This document shows positions 6,611 through 60,914 of a stretch of 64,000 nt of DNA, piece after piece. Source of the DNA: Edwardsiella tarda ATCC 15947 = NBRC 105688 (GTDB lineage Bacteria > Pseudomonadota > Gammaproteobacteria > Enterobacterales > Enterobacteriaceae); assembly GCF_003113495.2 (NCBI RefSeq), contig NZ_CP084506.1, positions 2,542,001 to 2,606,000 of the forward strand, read 5' to 3'. The position numbers were made by a program, and so were the translations under genes. Under the pieces are notes generated by a model, which saw only the letters and a program-made list of their open reading frames with translations, did no database searches and was not told the DNA's origin. Numbering within the stretch: the stretch's first letter is position 1; every line of letters begins with the position of its first letter.

Positions 6611-6810
6611 GCTACTTCTCCTCTCACTATGATGCCGAGCATCATAGCGGCTCGGCGCCATGATGCAAGGCGCAGACGCTCCCCTGTCTTTTCCCTGAAC
6701 AGATGGCAGCGATTTCCCCGCACAGCACTGCGAATCAGCGGGAGAAAAGTTTATACTGAACAGAGATAAGCTGCGTTTTCGGCGCGCACGGAAACGCCAC
6801 TGGAGGTGTA

Positions 6811-7728
6811 ATGAAGATAACCGTTTTAGGTTGTGGGGCGTTGGGCAAATTATGGCTCTCAGCGCTGGTGCGGCGCGGGCACCAGGTGCAGGGTTGGCTA
6901 CGCGTCCCTCAGTCGGAGTGTCATGTACATCTGATCACGCCACAGGGCCTCACCGACCAACGTCGCCTGCCGGCTAACGATAATGCCCTATTGGCGCAGA
7001 GTGACCTGCTGCTGGTCACGCTGAAAGCGTGGCAAATCGCCAACGCACTGCCCCCCTTGTTGCCCCGTCTCGCGCCCCACTGCACCATTTTGCTGCTACA
7101 CAATGGCATGGGCGCCCTGGACGAACTCATGCCACTGCCCACGCAACCCTTGTTACAGGGCAGCACCACCCATGCCGCGCGCCGTGAGGGACATACCGTC
7201 TGGCACGTCGCCAACGGCATCACCCATATCGGCCCGCTTAACGAGGCGGGGCAAGCCTGTAGCGGGCTGGCCGACGCCTTGCACCGGGCATTACCTGACG
7301 TCGCCTGGCACGATAATATTCAACCCGCGCTATGGAATAAGTTGGCGATCAACTGCGTCATCAATCCGTTGAGCGTACTGTATGGTTGTCACAACGGCGC
7401 ACTGGTCCAACACCAAGAACACATCCACGCCCTGATCGCCGAGATCGTCGAGGTGATGGAGGCGGAGGGCTACCGTACCAGCGCCCAAACGCTCTACAGC
7501 TATGTGATGCAGGTCATTCATCTGACCGCCGACAATCTCTCCTCCATGTTGCAAGATGTGCAGGCTCAGCGCCATACCGAAATCGACTATATCACCGGCT
7601 ATCTGATCCGCCGTGGCCGCAGCCATGGTCTGGCTCTCGCGGAAAACCGCCAACTTTTTGATCTGATAAAACGAAAGGAACAAACCTATGAGCGTATCGG
7701 CCTTGGTGTGTCTGGCGCCTGGCAGTGA
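6811..7728 (+). CDS. panE: 2-dehydropantoate 2-reductase (ketopantoate reductase)
   Basis: PanE reduces ketopantoate to pantoate with NADPH in the coenzyme A pathway. The 305-residue protein opens with the Rossmann motif [15 protein letters not shown] (GxGxxG), preceded by a strong GGAGG site. The C-terminal helical domain carries [16 protein letters not shown], containing the catalytic Lys of the family, and [20 protein letters not shown], a substrate-binding block. Its last 41 bases overlap yajL, so the two are translationally coupled. Length and order match E. coli. Confidence 0.97.
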
Positions 7729-44846: not shown

Positions 44847-45194
44847 TCCCCCTCGCCGCCCCATGGGCGGCGAAAAAAGACCGGACTAACACTGTTTTAT
44901 GTCAATTTGTTTCAAATCCGCCCAACAAACGCCCCTCCTGCGCGCTATTGCGAGCAAGTAACATAAAAAATCAAATAAAAACAATTAGTTATGCATGACC
45001 TTCACTAAACAAAAATAAATTTAATAAATGTGATTATTGGCTTGTCATCACGATTTGACTGGGGCAAAATACGCGCCCTGCGAATAGCCGATGTTTTACG
45101 TTGTGTCAGTAAGTAAAGACCAATGGACGTCGGTTATTTTTTTGTAGTGCAGAAAATTAAGTAGATGACTGAGGCCGGCCTTCGACCGGACATG
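44847..45194. other. Gap after yegD, AT-rich
   Basis: A GC-rich palindrome just past yegD (44854-44872) is followed by A, not T, so it is not a plus-strand terminator. From about 44940 to 45060 the DNA is strikingly AT-rich compared with its surroundings, without an ORF. It may hold the plaP promoter and binding sites for nucleoid proteins. Confidence 0.4.
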
Positions 45195-53021: not shown

Positions 53022-53309
53022 CGCTACACCGCAAACTCCCCCGCCTTCTCACCCTGCGCCTGATAGGTAGCGTACGCGCGGCAAGTGAGTGACAGCAGGC
53101 AGTAATTAATCAACGTGAGATAATGTTAGCACGCAAAGTATAATTGACGATTATTTTTCTGTGCCTTCTTCCCCTCTTCGCCGACCATGCCCATGCCCAT
53201 GCCCAGTGATGAGCGCCGCCTACGCCAGACAATAAAGCCATAGATTGCTTTTTGAACTCTCTCACATTTCATCGCTAAACATATTGAAGGATTACTCCAA
53301 AGATCATTT

Positions 53310-53332
53310 TATAATGGAGCAATACTACAAAG
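53310..53332 (+). promoter_or_regulatory. nanM promoter -10 with overlapping palindromic operator
   Basis: TATAAT at 53310-53315 runs straight into the imperfect palindrome TGGAGC AAT ACTACA. Twelve of 15 bases equal the perfect palindrome before nanA, placed the same way on its -10 box. A further half-site (reverse of TGGAGTAA) lies at 53292-53299. A good -35 is not evident at 17 bases. It is a candidate site for the RpiR-family regulator of the cluster. Confidence 0.6.
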
Positions 53333-53430
53333 ACAGCGTCATCATGCCGCGTAGGGGCGACGAGTGTGCCACAACTGGAACCGTCATCGTGTTATTTACG
53401 CGTCATTACTCTTTTATCATAGGAGTGTTT

Positions 53431-54585
53431 ATGTCTAGGTTAACACCGTCTACTACGCGGCTGATCGCCGCCTTAGTCGTCTCACTTGCAGTTATTCCGA
53501 CACTGCGCGCGGAATCGCTACCGCGCTTACCCCAACCTCTCAAGGCGGGAACCGGCGCCATCCTAAACGAAGTTATTTATATTGGTTTAGGTAGTGCGAA
53601 TAAATCCTGGTATCGCCTGGATAAACGATCCGAGGAGAAACGTTGGCAACCTATCGCTGAATTCCCCGGTAGCCCTCGCGATCAGGCCATCACCCTGGCG
53701 CTGAATAATAGTCTCTATGTCTTTGGTGGTAGCGGTAACGTGACGGAGCAAGATGCGACGCCCTCGGTACTCAGTGATATTTATCGTTATGATCCGGCCA
53801 ACGATCGCTGGCAGAAAATTGCCAGCCATCCTCCGCGCGGATTGGTCGGCCATGCTGGTGTCGCCCTCAACGCAAATCAGGGGCTATTGCTCGGCGGCGT
53901 CAATAAGGCCATCTTTGATGGCTATCTGCGTGATATCAACGCGCATAAAGACGATAAAAAAGCTAGCGAAGCCATTATCCAAAATTATTTTAATAAACCT
54001 AGCGAAGACTATTTCTTTAGCCGCGAGGCGCTGCTGTACGATGCGAAAAATAATCAGTGGCACGCCTTAGGCATTACTCCCTTTGCCGGTACGGCCGGTT
54101 CGGCCCTAGTCCGTAGCGGCGAACGCATCACGCTAATCAATGGTGAGATCAAGCCGGGTCTGCGTACCGACGCTATCCATTACGGACTCTGGTCACAGGA
54201 CAAGTTACGCTGGACCGGAGAGGCCCGGTTGCCTGCCCCTCCGGGAGCCCCGCTCCAAGAGGGACTCGCCGGGGCCTACGCGGGTTACAGCCATGGCACC
54301 TTACTGGTGGCTGGCGGGGCCAATTTCCCCGGCGCTCGGGCTAACTACCGTCAGCACCACTACTACGCCCATCAGGGACTGACCAAGACTTATCAACGCG
54401 CGATTTTCGCTCAACACGGCGAGACCTGGCGTGCCATCGGCGAGCTCCCACAGCCGCTGGGCTATGGGGTCACGATCAGCGATGGCGAGACGCTGTACTT
54501 GATCGGCGGTGAGACATCACAGGGTCAAGCGGTGGATTCGGTCATTGGCCTGAGTCTGCGCAACGGTCATCTCACCATCGAATAA
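53431..54585 (+). CDS. nanM: N-acetylneuraminate epimerase (mutarotase) NanM
   Basis: NanM speeds conversion of alpha- to beta-N-acetylneuraminic acid in the periplasm, helping uptake of sialic acid freed by host sialidases. The start ATG has AGGAG five bases upstream and gives 384 residues with a signal peptide ending near ALRAE. It forms a Kelch beta-propeller; visible blades include LYVFGGSGNV, HAGVALNANQGLLLGGVNKAIFDG and YGVTISDGETLYLIGGETSQG. E. coli NanM has a similar length. The 180-base leader between the operator and start is long. It is the first gene of the sialic acid cluster. Confidence 0.95.
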   Translation: MSRLTPSTTRLIAALVVSLAVIPTLRAESLPRLPQPLKAGTGAILNEVIYIGLGSANKSWYRLDKRSEEKRWQPIAEFPGSPRDQAITLALNNSLYVFGGSGNVTEQDATPSVLSDIYRYDPANDRWQKIASHPPRGLVGHAGVALNANQGLLLGGVNKAIFDGYLRDINAHKDDKKASEAIIQNYFNKPSEDYFFSREALLYDAKNNQWHALGITPFAGTAGSALVRSGERITLINGEIKPGLRTDAIHYGLWSQDKLRWTGEARLPAPPGAPLQEGLAGAYAGYSHGTLLVAGGANFPGARANYRQHHYYAHQGLTKTYQRAIFAQHGETWRAIGELPQPLGYGVTISDGETLYLIGGETSQGQAVDSVIGLSLRNGHLTIE

Positions 54586-54619
54586 TCACGGCGATGCCGT
54601 AGCCATTTTCTTTGCATGG

Positions 54620-54654
54620 CCGCCATAGCACACGCTAGCGATGCGCTATGGCGG
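54620..54654 (+). other. Inverted repeat between nanM and nanC
   Basis: CCGCCATAGC and GCTATGGCGG form a perfect 10-bp stem with a 15-base loop. There is no T run. It may act as a processing or stability element separating expression of the soluble mutarotase and the channel. Confidence 0.55.
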
Positions 54655-54711
54655 AGGGTAACAGACGACCAATTATCAAAAAATACTTATCAATATCTCT
54701 GGGAATATAAA

Positions 54712-55407
54712 ATGAAAAAAGAAATTATCTCGCTGACCTTGGCGGTGGCCACATTAGGCCTCCCTTGTGCGCTCTCCGCCACTACATTAGATTTTCGCCA
54801 TGAATATGCAGACACGACACGTATTCATAAAGATCGTATCGCGATTATTCAAAGCTTTGCCAATGGCATCGGTTTCTATGTCGATGCCAGCGTTAAATCG
54901 GGTGGGGTAAATAGCGAACAGGATAAGTTTCTGAGTGACCTCGTCACCAACGCCGTAGAAATGGGACTGAGTTATAACTACCAACTTAATCAGAATATCA
55001 GCCTACAGCCAGGTATTATCTTTGAAAGTGGTAGCGACACCGCCATCTATAAACCCTATCTACGCGCGCAATACCGTTTCGACAATGGCCTCTACCTCGC
55101 CGGGCGTTATCGTTACGACTATGCGCGCAAGACACAAGATGGCAGTGATGATGAAAAGACGAATCGCCTGGATGGATATATCGGCTACAACTTCAACTCC
55201 GCGCGTGTGGAATATAACTACACACAAATGTATAGCGATGCGCTGAAATATGACAATAAGAAGACTAACTACGAACATAACGTCGCCTTCTCTTATCGGA
55301 TCAATGAAATGTTCACGCCTTATATTGAGGTCGGCAACGTCGCAGTCAATAAAAATAGCGATGCACGTCAGACACGCTACCGTGTAGGACTGCAATATCA
55401 CTTTTAA
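54712..55407 (+). CDS. nanC: N-acetylneuraminate outer-membrane channel (KdgM family)
   Basis: NanC is a monomeric 12-stranded beta-barrel that lets sialic acid and acidic oligosaccharides through the outer membrane. The start MKKEIISLTLAVATLGLPCALSA gives a 231-residue precursor with a signal peptide. The mature part begins TTLDFRHEY as in KdgM/NanC, alternates strand residues, and ends YRVGLQYHF with the terminal Phe required for barrel assembly. KdgM itself is an alternative specificity, but location next to nanM favours sialate. Confidence 0.9.
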   Translation: MKKEIISLTLAVATLGLPCALSATTLDFRHEYADTTRIHKDRIAIIQSFANGIGFYVDASVKSGGVNSEQDKFLSDLVTNAVEMGLSYNYQLNQNISLQPGIIFESGSDTAIYKPYLRAQYRFDNGLYLAGRYRYDYARKTQDGSDDEKTNRLDGYIGYNFNSARVEYNYTQMYSDALKYDNKKTNYEHNVAFSYRINEMFTPYIEVGNVAVNKNSDARQTRYRVGLQYHF

Positions 55408-55418
55408 TCCTCCCACCG

Positions 55419-55442
55419 CAGGCGCCAGGGACACGGCGCCTG
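55419..55442 (+). other. Inverted repeat after nanC
   Basis: CAGGCGCC and GGCGCCTG, perfect over 8 bp with an 8-base loop, lie directly past the nanC stop. A T run is missing. It may partially uncouple nanC from the symporter gene. Confidence 0.55.
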
Positions 55443-55500
55443 TACTAACACGCCACATAGCACCACGGCGCGTTCTCCCAGCCAATGACAGGAGTGACAT

Positions 55501-56982
55501 ATGCAAGCTCATGACTTCGGATGGCTAAACTACACCGTCCTGTTCTGTTACCTACTGGCAATCATGTCGGTGGGCATGTACTTTGCGAAACGGCAGAAAA
55601 CAGCGGATGACTATTTTCGTGCCGGCGGTCGGATCCCCGGCTGGGCCGCGGGCATCTCCGTGTTCGCCACTACCCTCAGCTCCATCACCTTCATGTCGAT
55701 CCCGGCCAAAACCTACACCGCCGACTGGACCTTCATCATCGGCCAATATTTGGTGATCGCCATTCTGCCGCTGGTGTTCTACTTCTATATTCCGTTCTTC
55801 CGCAAGTTGAAGATCACCTCGGCCTATGAGTATCTGGAGGCGCGTTTCGATGTCCGTAGCCGCCTGTTCGCCAGCCTCTCCTTCATGTTGTTTCATATCG
55901 GACGGGTCGCCATCATCACCTACCTGACCGTACTGGCGTTACGGCCCTTCATCACCCTCGATCCCACGCTACTGGTGTTGCTGATCAGCATCCTATGCAT
56001 CATCTATACCTGGATGGGGGGCATCGAAGGGGTGATCTGGACTGACGTGATCCAAGGCCTGCTGCTCTCTCTGGGGGCACTGCTGATCCTCCTCATGATT
56101 TGCTGGAAGGTGGAGGGTGGGATCGTCGAGATCTACCACGCTACCGCTAGCGCCGACAAGTTCTTCCCGGCCAGCCAATGGCACTGGAGCTGGACCGATA
56201 GCACCATCCCGGTGCTGACCATTGGCTTCCTGTTCGCCAACATCCAGCAGTTTACCGCCAGCCAAGATGTGGTTCAGCGCTATATCGTCACCGACTCCAT
56301 CGAGCAGACCAAGCAGACGCTGATCACCAACGCCAAGCTGGTCGCCGTCATGCCCCTCATCTTCTTCGCCATCGGCTCGGCGTTATTTGTCTACTACCAG
56401 CAACATCCCCAACTGCTGCCAAAAGAGTTCAACAGCGGCGGCATCCTGCCACTCTTCGTGGTGACGCAGATGCCAAGCGGCATCGCCGGGTTGATCATCG
56501 CCGCCATCTTTGCCGCGGCGCAGTCCAGCATCTCCAGTAGCCTGAACAGTATCTCCAGTTGCTTCAACTCCGACATCTATGTGCGTCTCAGCCGCCAAGA
56601 GCGCAGCACGGCGCAGAAGATGAAGCTGGCGCGCTTGGTGATCATCATTGCCGGTTTGCTGAGCAGCCTGGCCACGTTATGGTTGGTGTACGCCAACGAA
56701 TCGGAGGTGTGGGACGCCTTCAACAGCCTGATTGGTCTGATGGGCGGCCCGATGACGGGCCTGTTTATGCTGGGGATCTTCTGTAAACGCGCCAATGCCG
56801 GCAGTGCCGTCGTCGGCATCCTGGTGAGCGTCATCGCGGTGCTGCTGGCACGCTACGCCAGCGATCTCAACTTCTTCTTCTACGGTGTCATCGGGGCACT
56901 GGCGGTCGTGATCGCGGGCGGGCTCAGCGCGCCGTTATTCCCCCCCGCGAAACAACTCCGCCTCGACCAGGATCAGGCTTAG
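55501..56982 (+). CDS. siaT: Sodium/sialic acid symporter, SiaT-type (SSS family)
   Basis: A sodium:solute symporter of 493 residues with about 13 helices. Residues recalled as sialic-acid ligands in the Proteus mirabilis SiaT structure are found at the same numbers here: Thr 58, Ser 60, Thr 63 (TTLSSIT), Phe 78, Gln 82 and Arg 135 (FHIGR). The Ser-rich run SSISSSLNSISSCF in helix 8 fits the sodium sites. It replaces the E. coli MFS transporter NanT. The assignment to sialic acid rests on this match and on the neighbours nanM, nanC and nanA. A clear terminator follows. Confidence 0.88.
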   Translation: MQAHDFGWLNYTVLFCYLLAIMSVGMYFAKRQKTADDYFRAGGRIPGWAAGISVFATTLSSITFMSIPAKTYTADWTFIIGQYLVIAILPLVFYFYIPFFRKLKITSAYEYLEARFDVRSRLFASLSFMLFHIGRVAIITYLTVLALRPFITLDPTLLVLLISILCIIYTWMGGIEGVIWTDVIQGLLLSLGALLILLMICWKVEGGIVEIYHATASADKFFPASQWHWSWTDSTIPVLTIGFLFANIQQFTASQDVVQRYIVTDSIEQTKQTLITNAKLVAVMPLIFFAIGSALFVYYQQHPQLLPKEFNSGGILPLFVVTQMPSGIAGLIIAAIFAAAQSSISSSLNSISSCFNSDIYVRLSRQERSTAQKMKLARLVIIIAGLLSSLATLWLVYANESEVWDAFNSLIGLMGGPMTGLFMLGIFCKRANAGSAVVGILVSVIAVLLARYASDLNFFFYGVIGALAVVIAGGLSAPLFPPAKQLRLDQDQA

Positions 56983-57003
56983 CGCCTCCCCCTCTGCCCG
57001 CCC

Positions 57004-57031
57004 AGCCCGGCAGCGCCGGGCTTCTTTTTTT
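57004..57031 (+). terminator. Terminator after siaT
   Basis: A perfect 8-bp stem (AGCCCGGC / GCCGGGCT) with a 3-base loop, then TC and seven T. It ends the nanM-nanC-siaT unit and separates the regulator gene. Confidence 0.92.
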
Positions 57032-57125
57032 AGCCGTCGTTATTTGCTACGCTACTTCCCGATACCGCAACCCCCCTGTTGCCGCGCCGCCGGACGGTGC
57101 TGTTCATCAATCAAGGCGCCCTCTC

Positions 57126-58010
57126 ATGAAGGATTCTCAGCAGATTCGACTACAACCCGGTAAGATCCTCGATACCCTTTCCGCTATGCGCAACAGCCTG
57201 ACACGCGTGTCTCAGCGCATCGCCGACTATATCCTGGCCGAGCCCACACAGGTAAGCCAGCTCTCGATTGCCCAGTTGGCGCAGGCCACACAGGCCGGAG
57301 AGGCGACGGTGATCCGTTTCTGCCGCACCCTCGGCTACAAGGGCTTCCAAGATTTTAAACTGGATCTGGCGATCGAGTTGGCGCGCAACGACGATGAAGA
57401 AACACCGTTGCTCGACGCTGAAATCGCCGATGATGACGATCTGCTGACTATCGGCCGTAAGCTCCAGAATGCGATCAACTGTGTCCTGTCGGAGACGCTG
57501 AATCTGTTGGATATGGCCCAGGTACAGGCGGCGGTAGACGCGATTCGCCAGGCCAACACCTTGTTTATCTGCGGCGTCGGCTCCTCCGGCATCACCGCAG
57601 AGGACATGAAAAACAAGCTGATGCGCATCGGCTACCGCGTTAACAGCACCAGCAACAACCATTTCATGTATATGCAGGCCACACTGCTGCAACCGGGTGA
57701 CGTCGCCATCGCCATTAGCCACTCCGGCGCCTCACCGGAGACGGTACAGACCCTCAAGCTGGCGCGTGAGGCAGGCGCGTGCACGATCGCCTTAACGCAC
57801 AACCTCGGCTCGGCATTGATGCGCTACGCCGATATCAGCCTGATTAACGGCAACCAACAGGGCAAACTGCAGGGTGACTCGATTGGTACCAAGACCGCCC
57901 AACTCTTCGTGCTGGATCTCCTGTATACCTTACTCGTTCAGGCCGAGCCACAACGCAGCGCGCAAAAGCTGCGTACCCTAGAGGCCCTGCGTAGCGCCAA
58001 GTCCTTGTAA
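57126..58010 (+). CDS. RpiR-family transcriptional regulator, likely of sialic acid genes
   Basis: A 294-residue regulator with an N-terminal helix-turn-helix of the RpiR type (residues about 15-90; SIAQLAQATQAGEATVIRFCRTLGYKGFQDF, given in parts) and a C-terminal sugar-isomerase (SIS) domain (about 130-270; FICGVGSSGITAEDMKNKLM and ISHSGASPETV), which binds sugar phosphates. In Haemophilus and Vibrio the sialic acid regulators SiaR/NanR are of this family, while E. coli NanR is a GntR protein. The likely effector is an amino-sugar phosphate. It lies between siaT and nanA on the same strand. Confidence 0.88.
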   Translation: MKDSQQIRLQPGKILDTLSAMRNSLTRVSQRIADYILAEPTQVSQLSIAQLAQATQAGEATVIRFCRTLGYKGFQDFKLDLAIELARNDDEETPLLDAEIADDDDLLTIGRKLQNAINCVLSETLNLLDMAQVQAAVDAIRQANTLFICGVGSSGITAEDMKNKLMRIGYRVNSTSNNHFMYMQATLLQPGDVAIAISHSGASPETVQTLKLAREAGACTIALTHNLGSALMRYADISLINGNQQGKLQGDSIGTKTAQLFVLDLLYTLLVQAEPQRSAQKLRTLEALRSAKSL

Positions 58011-58078
58011 CGTTCCGCCAGCAACAGCGCGCATGGTCACATTTTATGTCACGCATATGTCGTGACCTCATGCGGCGG

Positions 58079-58124
58079 TTGCCTCGGCGTCACCCGCCAT
58101 CTAAAATGGAGTAAAACTCCATTT
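58079..58124 (+). promoter_or_regulatory. nanA promoter with perfect palindromic operator
   Basis: TTGCCT at 58079-58084, 17 bases, TAAAAT at 58102-58107. A perfect inverted repeat at 58104-58124 (AAATGGAGT, AAA, ACTCCATTT) covers the end of the -10 box and the expected start point. The same element with three changes overlaps the nanM -10. Binding there would block RNA polymerase. Confidence 0.72.
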
Positions 58125-58166
58125 GCACGCAAACCAAAACAACATAACTCCATCAAGGAGGCTGGA

Positions 58167-59057
58167 ATGAAAAAGCTAACGGGTTTAATCGCCGCGCCCC
58201 ATACCCCCTTCCACAGCGACGGTAGCGTCAACTATCTGGTGATCGATCAGATTGCCGACCATCTGATCGCCAGTGGCGTGAGCGGTGCCTATGTCTTGGG
58301 TACCACCGGTGAGGGCATCCATTGCTCGGTCGCAGAGCGGATGGGCATCGCCGAGCGCTGGGTCGACGCCAGCCACGGGAGACTGGATCTCATCATACAT
58401 ACCGGTGCGCTAAGCATCGCCGATGCCACGACGCTGGCTCGTCATGCCAACACGCTGGATATCATGGCCACCTCCGTCATCGGCCCCTGCTTCTTCAAGC
58501 CCAGCAGTGTGGACGATCTGGTGGAGTACTGCCGACTGGTGGCAGCGGCGGCCCCGGATAAGGGTTTCTACTACTACCACTCCAGTATGTCTGGCCTCAA
58601 CATCGATATGGAGCGTTTCCTGATCCAGGCCGCCGCGCGGATTCCCAACCTCAGCGGTATGAAATTTAACGCCAACGATATGTATGAGTATCAACGCTGC
58701 CTGCGGGTAGAACAGGGGCGTTTTGACATCCCATTCGGCGTCGACGAATTCATGCCTGCAGGACTGGCCTGCGGGGCCACCAGTGCGGTCGGTAGCACTT
58801 ACAACTATGCCGCGCCACTCTACCTGCGCCTGATGGAAAGCTTCCGCCGGGGTGACATGCAGGATGTGGCTCGCTGCATGGATAGCGTGATCGCCATCAT
58901 CCGGGTCCTGGTCGAATATGGCGGTGTCGCCGCCGGGAAAGTCGCCATGCAACTGCACGGCATTGACGTCGGCGATCCACGCCGTCCGTTGCGCCCGTTG
59001 AGCGCGCAACAGAAGGCCGATGCCCTGGCCAAGTTACAGGCCATCGCCTGGCAATAG
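58167..59057 (+). CDS. nanA: N-acetylneuraminate lyase, animal-like group
   Basis: Splits N-acetylneuraminate to N-acetylmannosamine and pyruvate. The 296-residue barrel has the pyruvate site GTTGEG (45-50), catalytic Tyr 137 in FYYYH and Schiff-base Lys 166 in GMKF. The sequence is much nearer the vertebrate and Salmonella second-copy type (LGTTGEG, FYYYH, GVDE, AVGSTYNY) than E. coli NanA. The usual IPALTG after YYYH is SSMSG here, a change near the active site. AAGGAG is seven bases before the chosen ATG; an in-frame extension of 35 codons would include the operator and is rejected. Other dihydrodipicolinate-synthase family activities are possible but less likely. Confidence 0.88.
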   Translation: MKKLTGLIAAPHTPFHSDGSVNYLVIDQIADHLIASGVSGAYVLGTTGEGIHCSVAERMGIAERWVDASHGRLDLIIHTGALSIADATTLARHANTLDIMATSVIGPCFFKPSSVDDLVEYCRLVAAAAPDKGFYYYHSSMSGLNIDMERFLIQAAARIPNLSGMKFNANDMYEYQRCLRVEQGRFDIPFGVDEFMPAGLACGATSAVGSTYNYAAPLYLRLMESFRRGDMQDVARCMDSVIAIIRVLVEYGGVAAGKVAMQLHGIDVGDPRRPLRPLSAQQKADALAKLQAIAWQ

Positions 59058-59867: not shown

Positions 59868-60914
59868 ATGACGACTCAGCCAACCGGCAGCGTCGATAAC
59901 GTAACGATAGCGCCTACGACGCCGCGTTACTACTATGTCTTGCCCATCGCCGGGCAGTCGAACGCGATGGCCTATGGCGAAGGCATGCCATTACCCGACA
60001 CCCTGGACGCGCCACATCCGCGCATTAAACAGCTGGCACGACGCGCCACGGAGACCCCCTATGGTCCCCCCTGCCATTACAATCAAGTGATCGCCTTGGA
60101 TCACTGCCCACACGATGTGCAGGACATGAGCCGCTTCACCCATCCGCATGCCGATGTGCGACGTGGCGAGTATGGTTGCGTCGCACAGGCGCTGCATATC
60201 GGCAAGACTCTACTCCCCTACCTACCTGCCGAGGCGGGGATCCTGATCGTGCCGTGCGCACGGGGCGGCTCGGCCTTCACGCAGGGAAACCTGGGGGCCT
60301 ATCATCCCGCACGCGGTGCGACGGCGGACGCCTGTCGCTGGGGGGTAGCGACCCCGCTCTACCAGGATTTGCGCGATCGGACTCGGGCCGCGTTGCGCCA
60401 TAACCCCGACAACCGTCTGCTGGCGCTGATCTGGATGCAGGGGGAGTTTGATCTGACGACGGCAGAGTACGCTCGCCAGCCGGCGTTGTTCCAGGCAATG
60501 GTCGCGCGCTTCCGCGCCGATATGGCCGATATGGCGCCACAGATGGCCGGGGGGCGGGCGGATCGGGTGCCCTGGATCTGCGGCGATACCTGCGCGTACT
60601 GGCAAACGACCTACCCACGGCAGTATGCGACGATCTACGGCGCCTACCGGCACTGTCCGTTGCCGGCGCTGCATTTCGTCCCCTTGATGTATGACGCACA
60701 AGGGATGGCGACACCGAGTAATGCGCCAGCCGACGATCCCGATAACCCGGCGATGCACTATTACGGCGCCGCCTCCCGCGATGCGAGCAACTGGACCACC
60801 GCGCTACGCGCCGCCCACTTTAGTGCCCCGGCTCGGCGCTCGCTGATCCCTGAGCGTCTGGTGGCCGCCATTCTGCGTCACGCACCACTCCCGGCGGAAA
60901 CGACAGGCGGCTAG
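59868..60914 (+). CDS. nanS: Sialate O-acetylesterase NanS-like
   Basis: Removes O-acetyl groups from N-acetyl-9-O-acetylneuraminic acid so it can be metabolised. The 348-residue SGNH-type hydrolase has the nucleophile block LPIAGQSNAMAYGEG (residues about 25-39), a second block PCARGGSAF, WMQGEFD, and a C-terminal HYYG with the likely catalytic His. E. coli NanS is about 326 residues with the same blocks. GGAGAGGAG precedes the start. There is no signal peptide, so it should act in the cytoplasm. E. coli keeps nanS with nanC and nanM; here it is split from them by the regulator and lyase. Confidence 0.9.
   Translation: MTTQPTGSVDNVTIAPTTPRYYYVLPIAGQSNAMAYGEGMPLPDTLDAPHPRIKQLARRATETPYGPPCHYNQVIALDHCPHDVQDMSRFTHPHADVRRGEYGCVAQALHIGKTLLPYLPAEAGILIVPCARGGSAFTQGNLGAYHPARGATADACRWGVATPLYQDLRDRTRAALRHNPDNRLLALIWMQGEFDLTTAEYARQPALFQAMVARFRADMADMAPQMAGGRADRVPWICGDTCAYWQTTYPRQYATIYGAYRHCPLPALHFVPLMYDAQGMATPSNAPADDPDNPAMHYYGAASRDASNWTTALRAAHFSAPARRSLIPERLVAAILRHAPLPAETTGG

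Follow-up and report, generated by a model that had tools for sequence, protein, structure and literature searches.

Palindromic sites predicted to be operators of NanR, a SiaR-type regulator of the RpiR family, in Edwardsiella tarda

This study concerns a palindrome shared by promoters of sialic acid genes in Edwardsiella tarda ATCC 15947 and its relation to the product of the adjacent gene nanR, a regulator of the RpiR family. The locus was analyzed within a stretch of 64,000 nucleotides (C1:2542001-2606000 of a 3.8-Mb genome, C1 being contig NZ_CP084506.1), hereafter the window. Palindromes of this type are found at nanM and nanA in the window and upstream of nanE-nanK elsewhere in the genome. 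They recur at sialic acid loci of relatives, often as pairs exactly 30 base pairs (bp) apart. These features of the sequence make it very probable that the palindrome serves as the binding site of NanR.

The sialic acid locus

The genes follow in the order nanM, nanC, siaT, nanR, nanA, a DUF1275 gene on the opposite strand, and nanS. The annotated features are:

53431..54585, + strand: nanM, N-acetylneuraminate epimerase (NF010730, 506 bits over cut-off; PF24996)
54712..55407, + strand: nanC-like porin, KdgM family (PF06178)
55501..56982, + strand: siaT-like sodium:solute symporter, SSS (PF00474; 895 bits to PDB 5nv9, which we take to be SiaT of Proteus mirabilis)
57005..57031, + strand: likely terminator between siaT and nanR, a hairpin with a T-run, read by eye in the sequence
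57126..58010, + strand: nanR, RpiR-family regulator of the SiaR clade (PF01418 and PF01380 over cut-offs; tree)
58167..59057, + strand: nanA, N-acetylneuraminate lyase (PF00701; 528 bits to PDB 6h4e, 449 bits to 5afd)
59868..60914, + strand: nanS-like esterase, SASA (PF03629), no operator found upstream

Both structures matched by NanA are named N-acetylneuraminate lyase; against the NCBIfam lyase models the protein scores below the cut-off. None of the seven locus proteins scanned is a TRAP component.

A nanS-like esterase gene near nanA (59868-60914 in the window) was otherwise found only in E. hoshinae; the stretches fetched from E. anguillarum, E. piscicida and E. ictaluri yielded none. 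The 17-kb stretch of E. ictaluri ATCC 33202 (L064 / L091, NZ_AFJI01000113.1) yielded no nanM, the alignment of nanC covers only the last ~105 residues, and DUF1275 is in two pieces; siaT, nanR and nanA are nearly full-length. In this strain, degradation seems to have affected the outer-membrane part of sialic acid use.

Candidate operators at nanA and nanM

Promoter boxes and the half-site listed below were assigned from the sequence; CRP-like sites are scored by matching core bases and palindromes by matching bases in the two six-base arms.

53248..53269, + strand: CRP-like site CTTTTTGAACTCTCTCACATTT before nanM, 9/10 core bases
53284..53289, + strand: -35-like TTGAAG of nanM, spacer 20
53285..53299, + strand: upstream operator palindrome TGAAGGATTACTCCA of nanM (predicted), 10/12 arm bases
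53310..53315, + strand: -10 box TATAAT of nanM
53315..53329, + strand: downstream operator palindrome TGGAGCAATACTACA of nanM (predicted), 10/12 arm bases
58023..58044, + strand: weak CRP-like site before nanA, 7/10 core bases
58079..58084, + strand: -35 TTGCCT of nanA, spacer 17
58102..58107, + strand: -10 TAAAAT of nanA
58107..58121, no strand assigned: operator palindrome TGGAGTAAAACTCCA of nanA (predicted), 12/12 arm bases
58147..58152, + strand: half-site ACTCCA downstream of the nanA palindrome, in a 31-bp register

A preliminary description of this DNA had reported a perfect palindrome following TAAAAT at nanA. The sequence confirms it, with perfect 9-base arms, AAATGGAGT-AAA-ACTCCATTT, at 58104-58124. 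The first T of TGGAGTAAAACTCCA is also the last base of the -10 box (58107). At all four loci compared in other Edwardsiella, 11-12 of the 12 arm bases are retained. The half-site at 58147..58152 is possibly a remnant of a partner site; before nanA of Buttiauxella a partner at 30 bp is present.

The same description had TATAAT of nanM (53310-53315) followed by a similar palindrome, and this too stands: TGGAGCAATACTACA (53315-53329) equals the nanA site in 12 of 15 bases and has the same register relative to the -10 box. What had been taken for an extra half-site at 53292 is real, but not isolated, being the right arm of the second palindrome TGAAGGATTACTCCA (53285-53299). Around the -10 box of nanM there are thus two palindromes of 15 bp, at a distance of exactly 30 bp. 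Conservation at nanM was assessed in the three relatives in which the gene was found (E. hoshinae, E. anguillarum and E. piscicida). The downstream palindrome is identical in all of them, and the upstream one matches in 11 of 12 arm bases, which is better than in E. tarda itself. Matches with at least 9/12 arm bases are absent before nanC, nanR and nanS, and a single one with 9 precedes siaT, so the earlier statement that siaT, nanR and nanS carry no third copy holds for these genes; a further site does exist outside the window, before nanE.

The CRP-like site of nanM is the only match with at least 9/10 core bases in a scan of the plus strand of the window, and each of the three other Edwardsiella loci that contain nanM has the same score. 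If transcription starts 7 bases after TATAAT, the center of the site would be at about -63, close to the class I position. The match before nanE has 8/10 core bases. At nanA the score is 7/10 in E. tarda and in three other loci and below 7 in E. hoshinae; this is the chance level, because the plus strand of the window contains 125 such matches.

Seven matches to the palindrome with at most three mismatches occur in the window (the nanA site being counted on both strands), compared with 0.56 expected, and none of 100 shuffles reaches seven. Palindromes with 9-base arms and a 3-base center are not rare per se: the window holds three, the other two at 6627-6647 and 44853-44873. No exact match other than the nanA site occurs genome-wide. 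We tried and rejected the single-motif genome scan as a source of evidence, the word being too degenerate alone: allowing three mismatches, 66 matches compare with 34 in the reversed control, the inner-arm pattern at the same tolerance gives 1270 versus 984, and TGRAGTNNNACTYCA with one mismatch gives 36 places versus 16. Of these 36 places, 34 are inside open frames 160 codons or longer. The sites of nanM and nanA overlap their own frames in 5' extensions only. Three of the 34 (C1:1812465, 2069809, 3389693) are less than 200 bases from a possible start of the longest or near-longest frame, and several are near frame ends; such start-near and end-near places may be promoter sites. Because the word is weak genome-wide, its conservation was tested, and conservation carries the case.

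nanE-nanK as a probable third target

The genes nanE and nanK lie together outside the window, at C1:3029448-3031008. Two of the 66 genome matches, C1:3029380 and C1:3029289, lie directly upstream of them. The first site, C1:3029380-3029394, is kept in all five Edwardsiella genomes, and 30 bp further there is an arm TGGAGC. A partner with at least 9/12 arm bases at 30 bp is present in four of these genomes, the exception being E. tarda itself. The second match, CGGAGTTTCACTCCG, is operator-like and likewise kept in 5/5 genomes. It is contained in GGCGGAGTTTCACTCCGCC (C1:3029287-3029305; 7288-7306 of the extracted locus L061) directly after dsbI, which may be the dsbI terminator; for this reason we left it out of the sure operators.

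Among the other promoters that had been named as possible carriers, that of nanE-nanK bears the site, but not all of them do. In the 7 kb surrounding the best nagA, just one match has two or fewer arm mismatches, and it is located within a nagE-like frame (the search covered this gene, a second nagA-like one being at C1:992794). Sialidases were sought in the genome as one family, BNR_2, and no member was found.

Conservation and spacing of the sites in relatives

Relatives of NanR were collected in one scan of named genomes, which gave 297 confirmed matches; the best 80 were kept, and their loci comprise 1.56 Mb. The 59 other permutations of the letters of the arm TGGAGT served as controls. 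Palindromes of TGGAGT with all 12 arm bases were found 7 times (at most 4 in any control), those with at least 11 bases 114 times (at most 32), and those with at least 10 bases 276 times (at most 182). The preliminary description had stated that a lack of enrichment near sialic acid genes in related genomes would speak against the idea; the enrichment proved strong.

The distance between neighboring sites was analyzed for pairs not more than 100 bp apart, both members having at least 9 and one at least 10 of the 12 arm bases. Exactly 30 bp separate 52 of the 117 pairs, the next commonest distances occurring 6 times each; control arms yield at most one 30-bp pair. The perfect string ACTYCA-N15-TGRAGT is present in 34 of the 80 loci, with 34 occurrences in all. 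With other spacers from 0 to 60 the same half-sites are found 9 times at N16 and at most 5 times otherwise (median 1).

In the loci of relatives the sites precede nanE, nanA, nanM and nanK. We also formulated a strict rule. A site had to lie no further than 450 bp upstream of a nan gene, nanR excepted, and to match in at least 11/12 arm bases; 9 or more were enough if a partner with 8 or more stood at 30 bp. Such sites are present in 63 of the 80 loci, compared with at most 5 in the 59 controls, and in 63 of the 67 loci outside the Pasteurellaceae-type group. Three of the four remaining loci (Moellerella, Vibrio hibernica and Kluyvera georgiana) have 10/12 sites before nanE or nanA; the fourth, a 3.5-kb contig of Photobacterium, contains a 12/12 and an 11/12 site with no nan start within reach.

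In the two Yersinia loci and the one Rahnella locus examined, a nanT-like gene of the sialate:H+ symporter family lies downstream of nanR, and it too is preceded by sites paired at 30 bp:

L114 11036-11080: nanT-like paired sites, Yersinia rohdei
L126 11043-11087: nanT-like paired sites, Yersinia ruckeri
L129 11036-11080: nanT-like paired sites, Rahnella laticis

The regulator and its co-occurrence with the sites

NanR contains the RpiR helix-turn-helix domain (PF01418, HTH_6; 84.2 bits) and the SIS domain (PF01380; 80.5 bits), both over the cut-offs, and is 94% identical to NanR of E. hoshinae. Four further matches to it are encoded in the same genome. On the MurR model it scores 144 bits with a cut-off of 408. 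PDB 4ivn, presumably NanR of Vibrio vulnificus, scores 114 bits against it, below the 131.5 bits of a paralog from the same genome, and is therefore probably not its ortholog.

In the tree of 44 aligned pieces, built without SiaR of Haemophilus influenzae itself and without 4ivn, NanR belongs to a group of 30 rows (support 99/97) that is separate from 14 other RpiR rows and comprises regulators from Enterobacterales, Vibrionaceae, Psychromonas and of the Pasteurellaceae type. The six Pasteurellaceae-type rows show 55-59% identity, and those from Haemophilus occupy the siaR position in nanE-nanK-siaR-nanA loci. The system is SiaR-type, a kind known from Haemophilus. One Pasteurellaceae-type nan locus comes from a record titled Pseudomonas stutzeri NCTC11607 (L158, CABDVE010000001.1); its regulator groups with Rodentibacter, and the record is possibly a mislabelled genome.

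Matches to NanE over the family cut-off were found in 19 of 60 genomes, that of E. tarda included. A site before nanE was defined by at least 10/12 arm bases, or 11/12 of TGRAGT/ACTYCA, in the region from -400 to +60 relative to the first matched nanE base. It is present in all eight genomes having a NanR match with at least 57% identity and in none of the eleven without one; by genus the counts are 4/4 versus 0/11.

Comparison with known regulators

SiaR of nontypeable H. influenzae, which we take to be an RpiR-family protein, is a close parallel. According to PMC2946308, it acts on the nan and siaPT operons together with CRP, with glucosamine 6-phosphate (GlcN-6P) as co-activator; its site partly overlaps the nan -10 box and adjoins the CRP site with a 3-bp overlap; and it protects 53 bp and produces two shifted bands. 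The CRP/SiaR junction primer given in the same source, when reverse-complemented, reads as a CRP-type end followed by TGAAAAAACACTTCA. In H. haemolyticus, ACTTCA-N15-TGGAGT comes after the CRP-type end at the same junction; if 53 bp are counted off from the final three bases of the CRP site, the count stops within TATAAT. This compound agrees with the 53-bp frame, the CRP overlap and the -10 overlap of SiaR, the start of the footprint being our reading of that text.

The likeness to SiaR consists in the grouping of NanR with the Haemophilus proteins in the siaR position and in the overlap of the predicted operator with the -10 boxes of nanM and nanA. The arrangement of targets is different. 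Haemophilus has one operator set for the divergent nan and siaPT operons, whereas Edwardsiella has separate promoters for nanM, nanA and nanE, with an SSS symporter and a porin at the locus. The shared divergent operator is missing from the other Enterobacterales loci compared as well, so that it is less a trait of the protein group than of the Haemophilus locus.

Two adjacent sites are also described for MurR of Escherichia coli, another RpiR protein. According to PMC12713135 they overlap the -35 and -10 boxes with 17 bp between them and 47 bp in total, and a tetramer is proposed. The Edwardsiella compound differs in having 15 bp between the sites and 45 bp in total, and in the pathway served. 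For V. vulnificus NanR, an RpiR-family regulator of sialic acid genes, the same source gives two adjacent sites and states that the minimal site was not defined. E. coli NanR differs in type: according to PMC8012715, it is a GntR-family repressor of sialic acid genes with the operator (GGTATA)3, whereas NanR of Edwardsiella has HTH_6 and SIS domains and the motif is TGGAGT-N3-ACTCCA. In PMC3223726 a NanR is listed among regulators with E. coli orthologs, which gives no help on this motif. We found no prior description of the motif in the literature, which was searched by names and not by letters; it may be on record, for instance in RegPrecise or in an earlier paper on the SiaR footprint.

Discussion

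We consider it highly likely that NanR, an RpiR regulator of the SiaR clade, binds an operator, in its full form a compound of 45 bp, and acts as the repressor of nanM (together with nanC and siaT), nanA and nanE-nanK, CRP being the likely activator. The proposal of the preliminary description that the RpiR-family product represses both promoters gains support, at the level of sequence comparison, from the enrichment of the motif and its co-occurrence with the ortholog. From the observed sites, spacing, conservation, co-occurrence and kinship of the regulator we infer how binding, tetramer, ligand, repression, CRP action and operon extent may fit together.

NanR (57126-58010) would recognize palindromes TGRAGT-N3-ACTYCA, and the full operator would be TGRAGT-N3-ACTYCA-N15-TGRAGT-N3-ACTYCA. 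Two palindromes 30 bp, or about three helical turns, apart would face one side of the DNA, an arrangement suited to a dimer of dimers; by analogy with the proposal for MurR, a dimer on each palindrome may pair with the other into a tetramer across the 30 bp. The pair at nanM would bracket the core promoter, the single perfect palindrome at nanA would cover the -10 box, and at nanE a nearly full upstream palindrome would be accompanied by a partner keeping one arm. Repression by NanR is likely, given the position of the sites: when sialic acid is absent, NanR would cover the core promoter and block RNA polymerase. An amino-sugar phosphate derived from sialic acid may then alter the complex, causing either release or, as with SiaR, partnership with CRP. 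The complex of CRP with cyclic AMP, bound upstream and most clearly at nanM, would drive transcription, with nanC and siaT transcribed after nanM.

Several observations weigh against this reading or limit it. The -35 candidate of nanM is poor because of its 20-bp spacer. The nanA site of E. tarda has no partner at 30 bp, only the arm ACTCCA at 31, and the nanE partner in this genome retains one arm only. The -10 register of nanM and nanA in Edwardsiella is not general; as a general rule it was rejected, since at that offset just 4 out of the 52 promoters aligned agree with TATAAT in at least five bases (the best-scoring site per promoter was used, and some divergent regions are counted twice). 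None of the 13 Pasteurellaceae-type loci has a site by the strict rule. With a looser inner-arm score, 11 of 14 such loci reach at least 10/12 (four with 12, four with 11 and three with 10), and three have only 8-9 of 12. One genome counted among those without the ortholog, G037, has a NanR relative with 39% identity that joins the 30-row group on a long branch, its placement being unsure. Finally, the loci are kin rather than independent trials and include four from Edwardsiella, the source of the motif, and the strict rule was set after the first conservation results; for both reasons the counts overstate significance.

Plain derepression may also be the wrong picture, because SiaR is reported (PMC2946308) to stay bound to DNA and to activate in the presence of GlcN-6P. 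By analogy, NanR may combine repression with activation, the latter in concert with CRP and a sugar phosphate. In its strong form, this alternative has NanR remaining on the same operator, repressing when alone and activating the same promoters with an amino-sugar phosphate and CRP. We regard it as possible, though somewhat doubtful. It draws on the placement of NanR in one group with the Haemophilus regulators, on the published behavior of SiaR, and on the CRP-like sites before nanM (9/10) and nanE (8/10). However, palindromes lying on the -10 boxes of nanM and nanA are unlike an activator position, the CRP-like match of nanA is at the chance level, and the Edwardsiella locus has no shared divergent siaPT operator.

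It is improbable that the palindromes belong to another regulator, such as NagC, a GntR-type NanR or an RpiR paralog of E. tarda itself. The genome does encode four further NanR matches, and the nan genes of E. coli are controlled by a GntR-type NanR on GGTATA repeats (PMC8012715), but the motif is unlike GGTATA, and the sites track the NanR ortholog (8/8 versus 0/11), weaker RpiR relatives being present in all eleven genomes without sites. A hairpin in the leader mRNA, suggested by the perfect arms and 3-base loop at nanA, is very unlikely in place of a protein site: the palindrome shares its first base with the -10 box, and transcription would therefore start inside it; moreover, the paired palindromes of nanM lie on either side of its -10 box, and the 30-bp spacing is general. 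Chance likeness of two AT-rich promoter regions, for which one may cite the three 9-3-9 palindromes of the window and the loose genome matches, can hardly be reconciled with the conservation and spacing of the sites across genera.

Returning to NanR as the regulator that binds these palindromes, we tentatively suggest that the 45-bp compound could well be the ancestral operator of SiaR-type NanR proteins in Enterobacterales, Vibrionaceae, Psychromonadaceae and Pasteurellaceae, on which one tetramer clamps the core promoter and switches from off to on with CRP at a set distance. If this is true, the compound would be a defined minimal operator and would explain both the double shift and the 53-bp footprint of SiaR. 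The paired sites would also make it possible to address by experiment whether RpiR regulators bind DNA as dimers or as tetramers, a question raised in PMC12713135. For the group whose Haemophilus member is characterized in PMC2946308 by a broad 53-bp protected region, the predicted operator is precise in its arms and its 30-bp spacing. The known catabolic and uptake promoters of Edwardsiella sialic acid use would be tied to one regulator, and many enterobacteria would have an RpiR-type switch in place of the GntR-type switch of E. coli.

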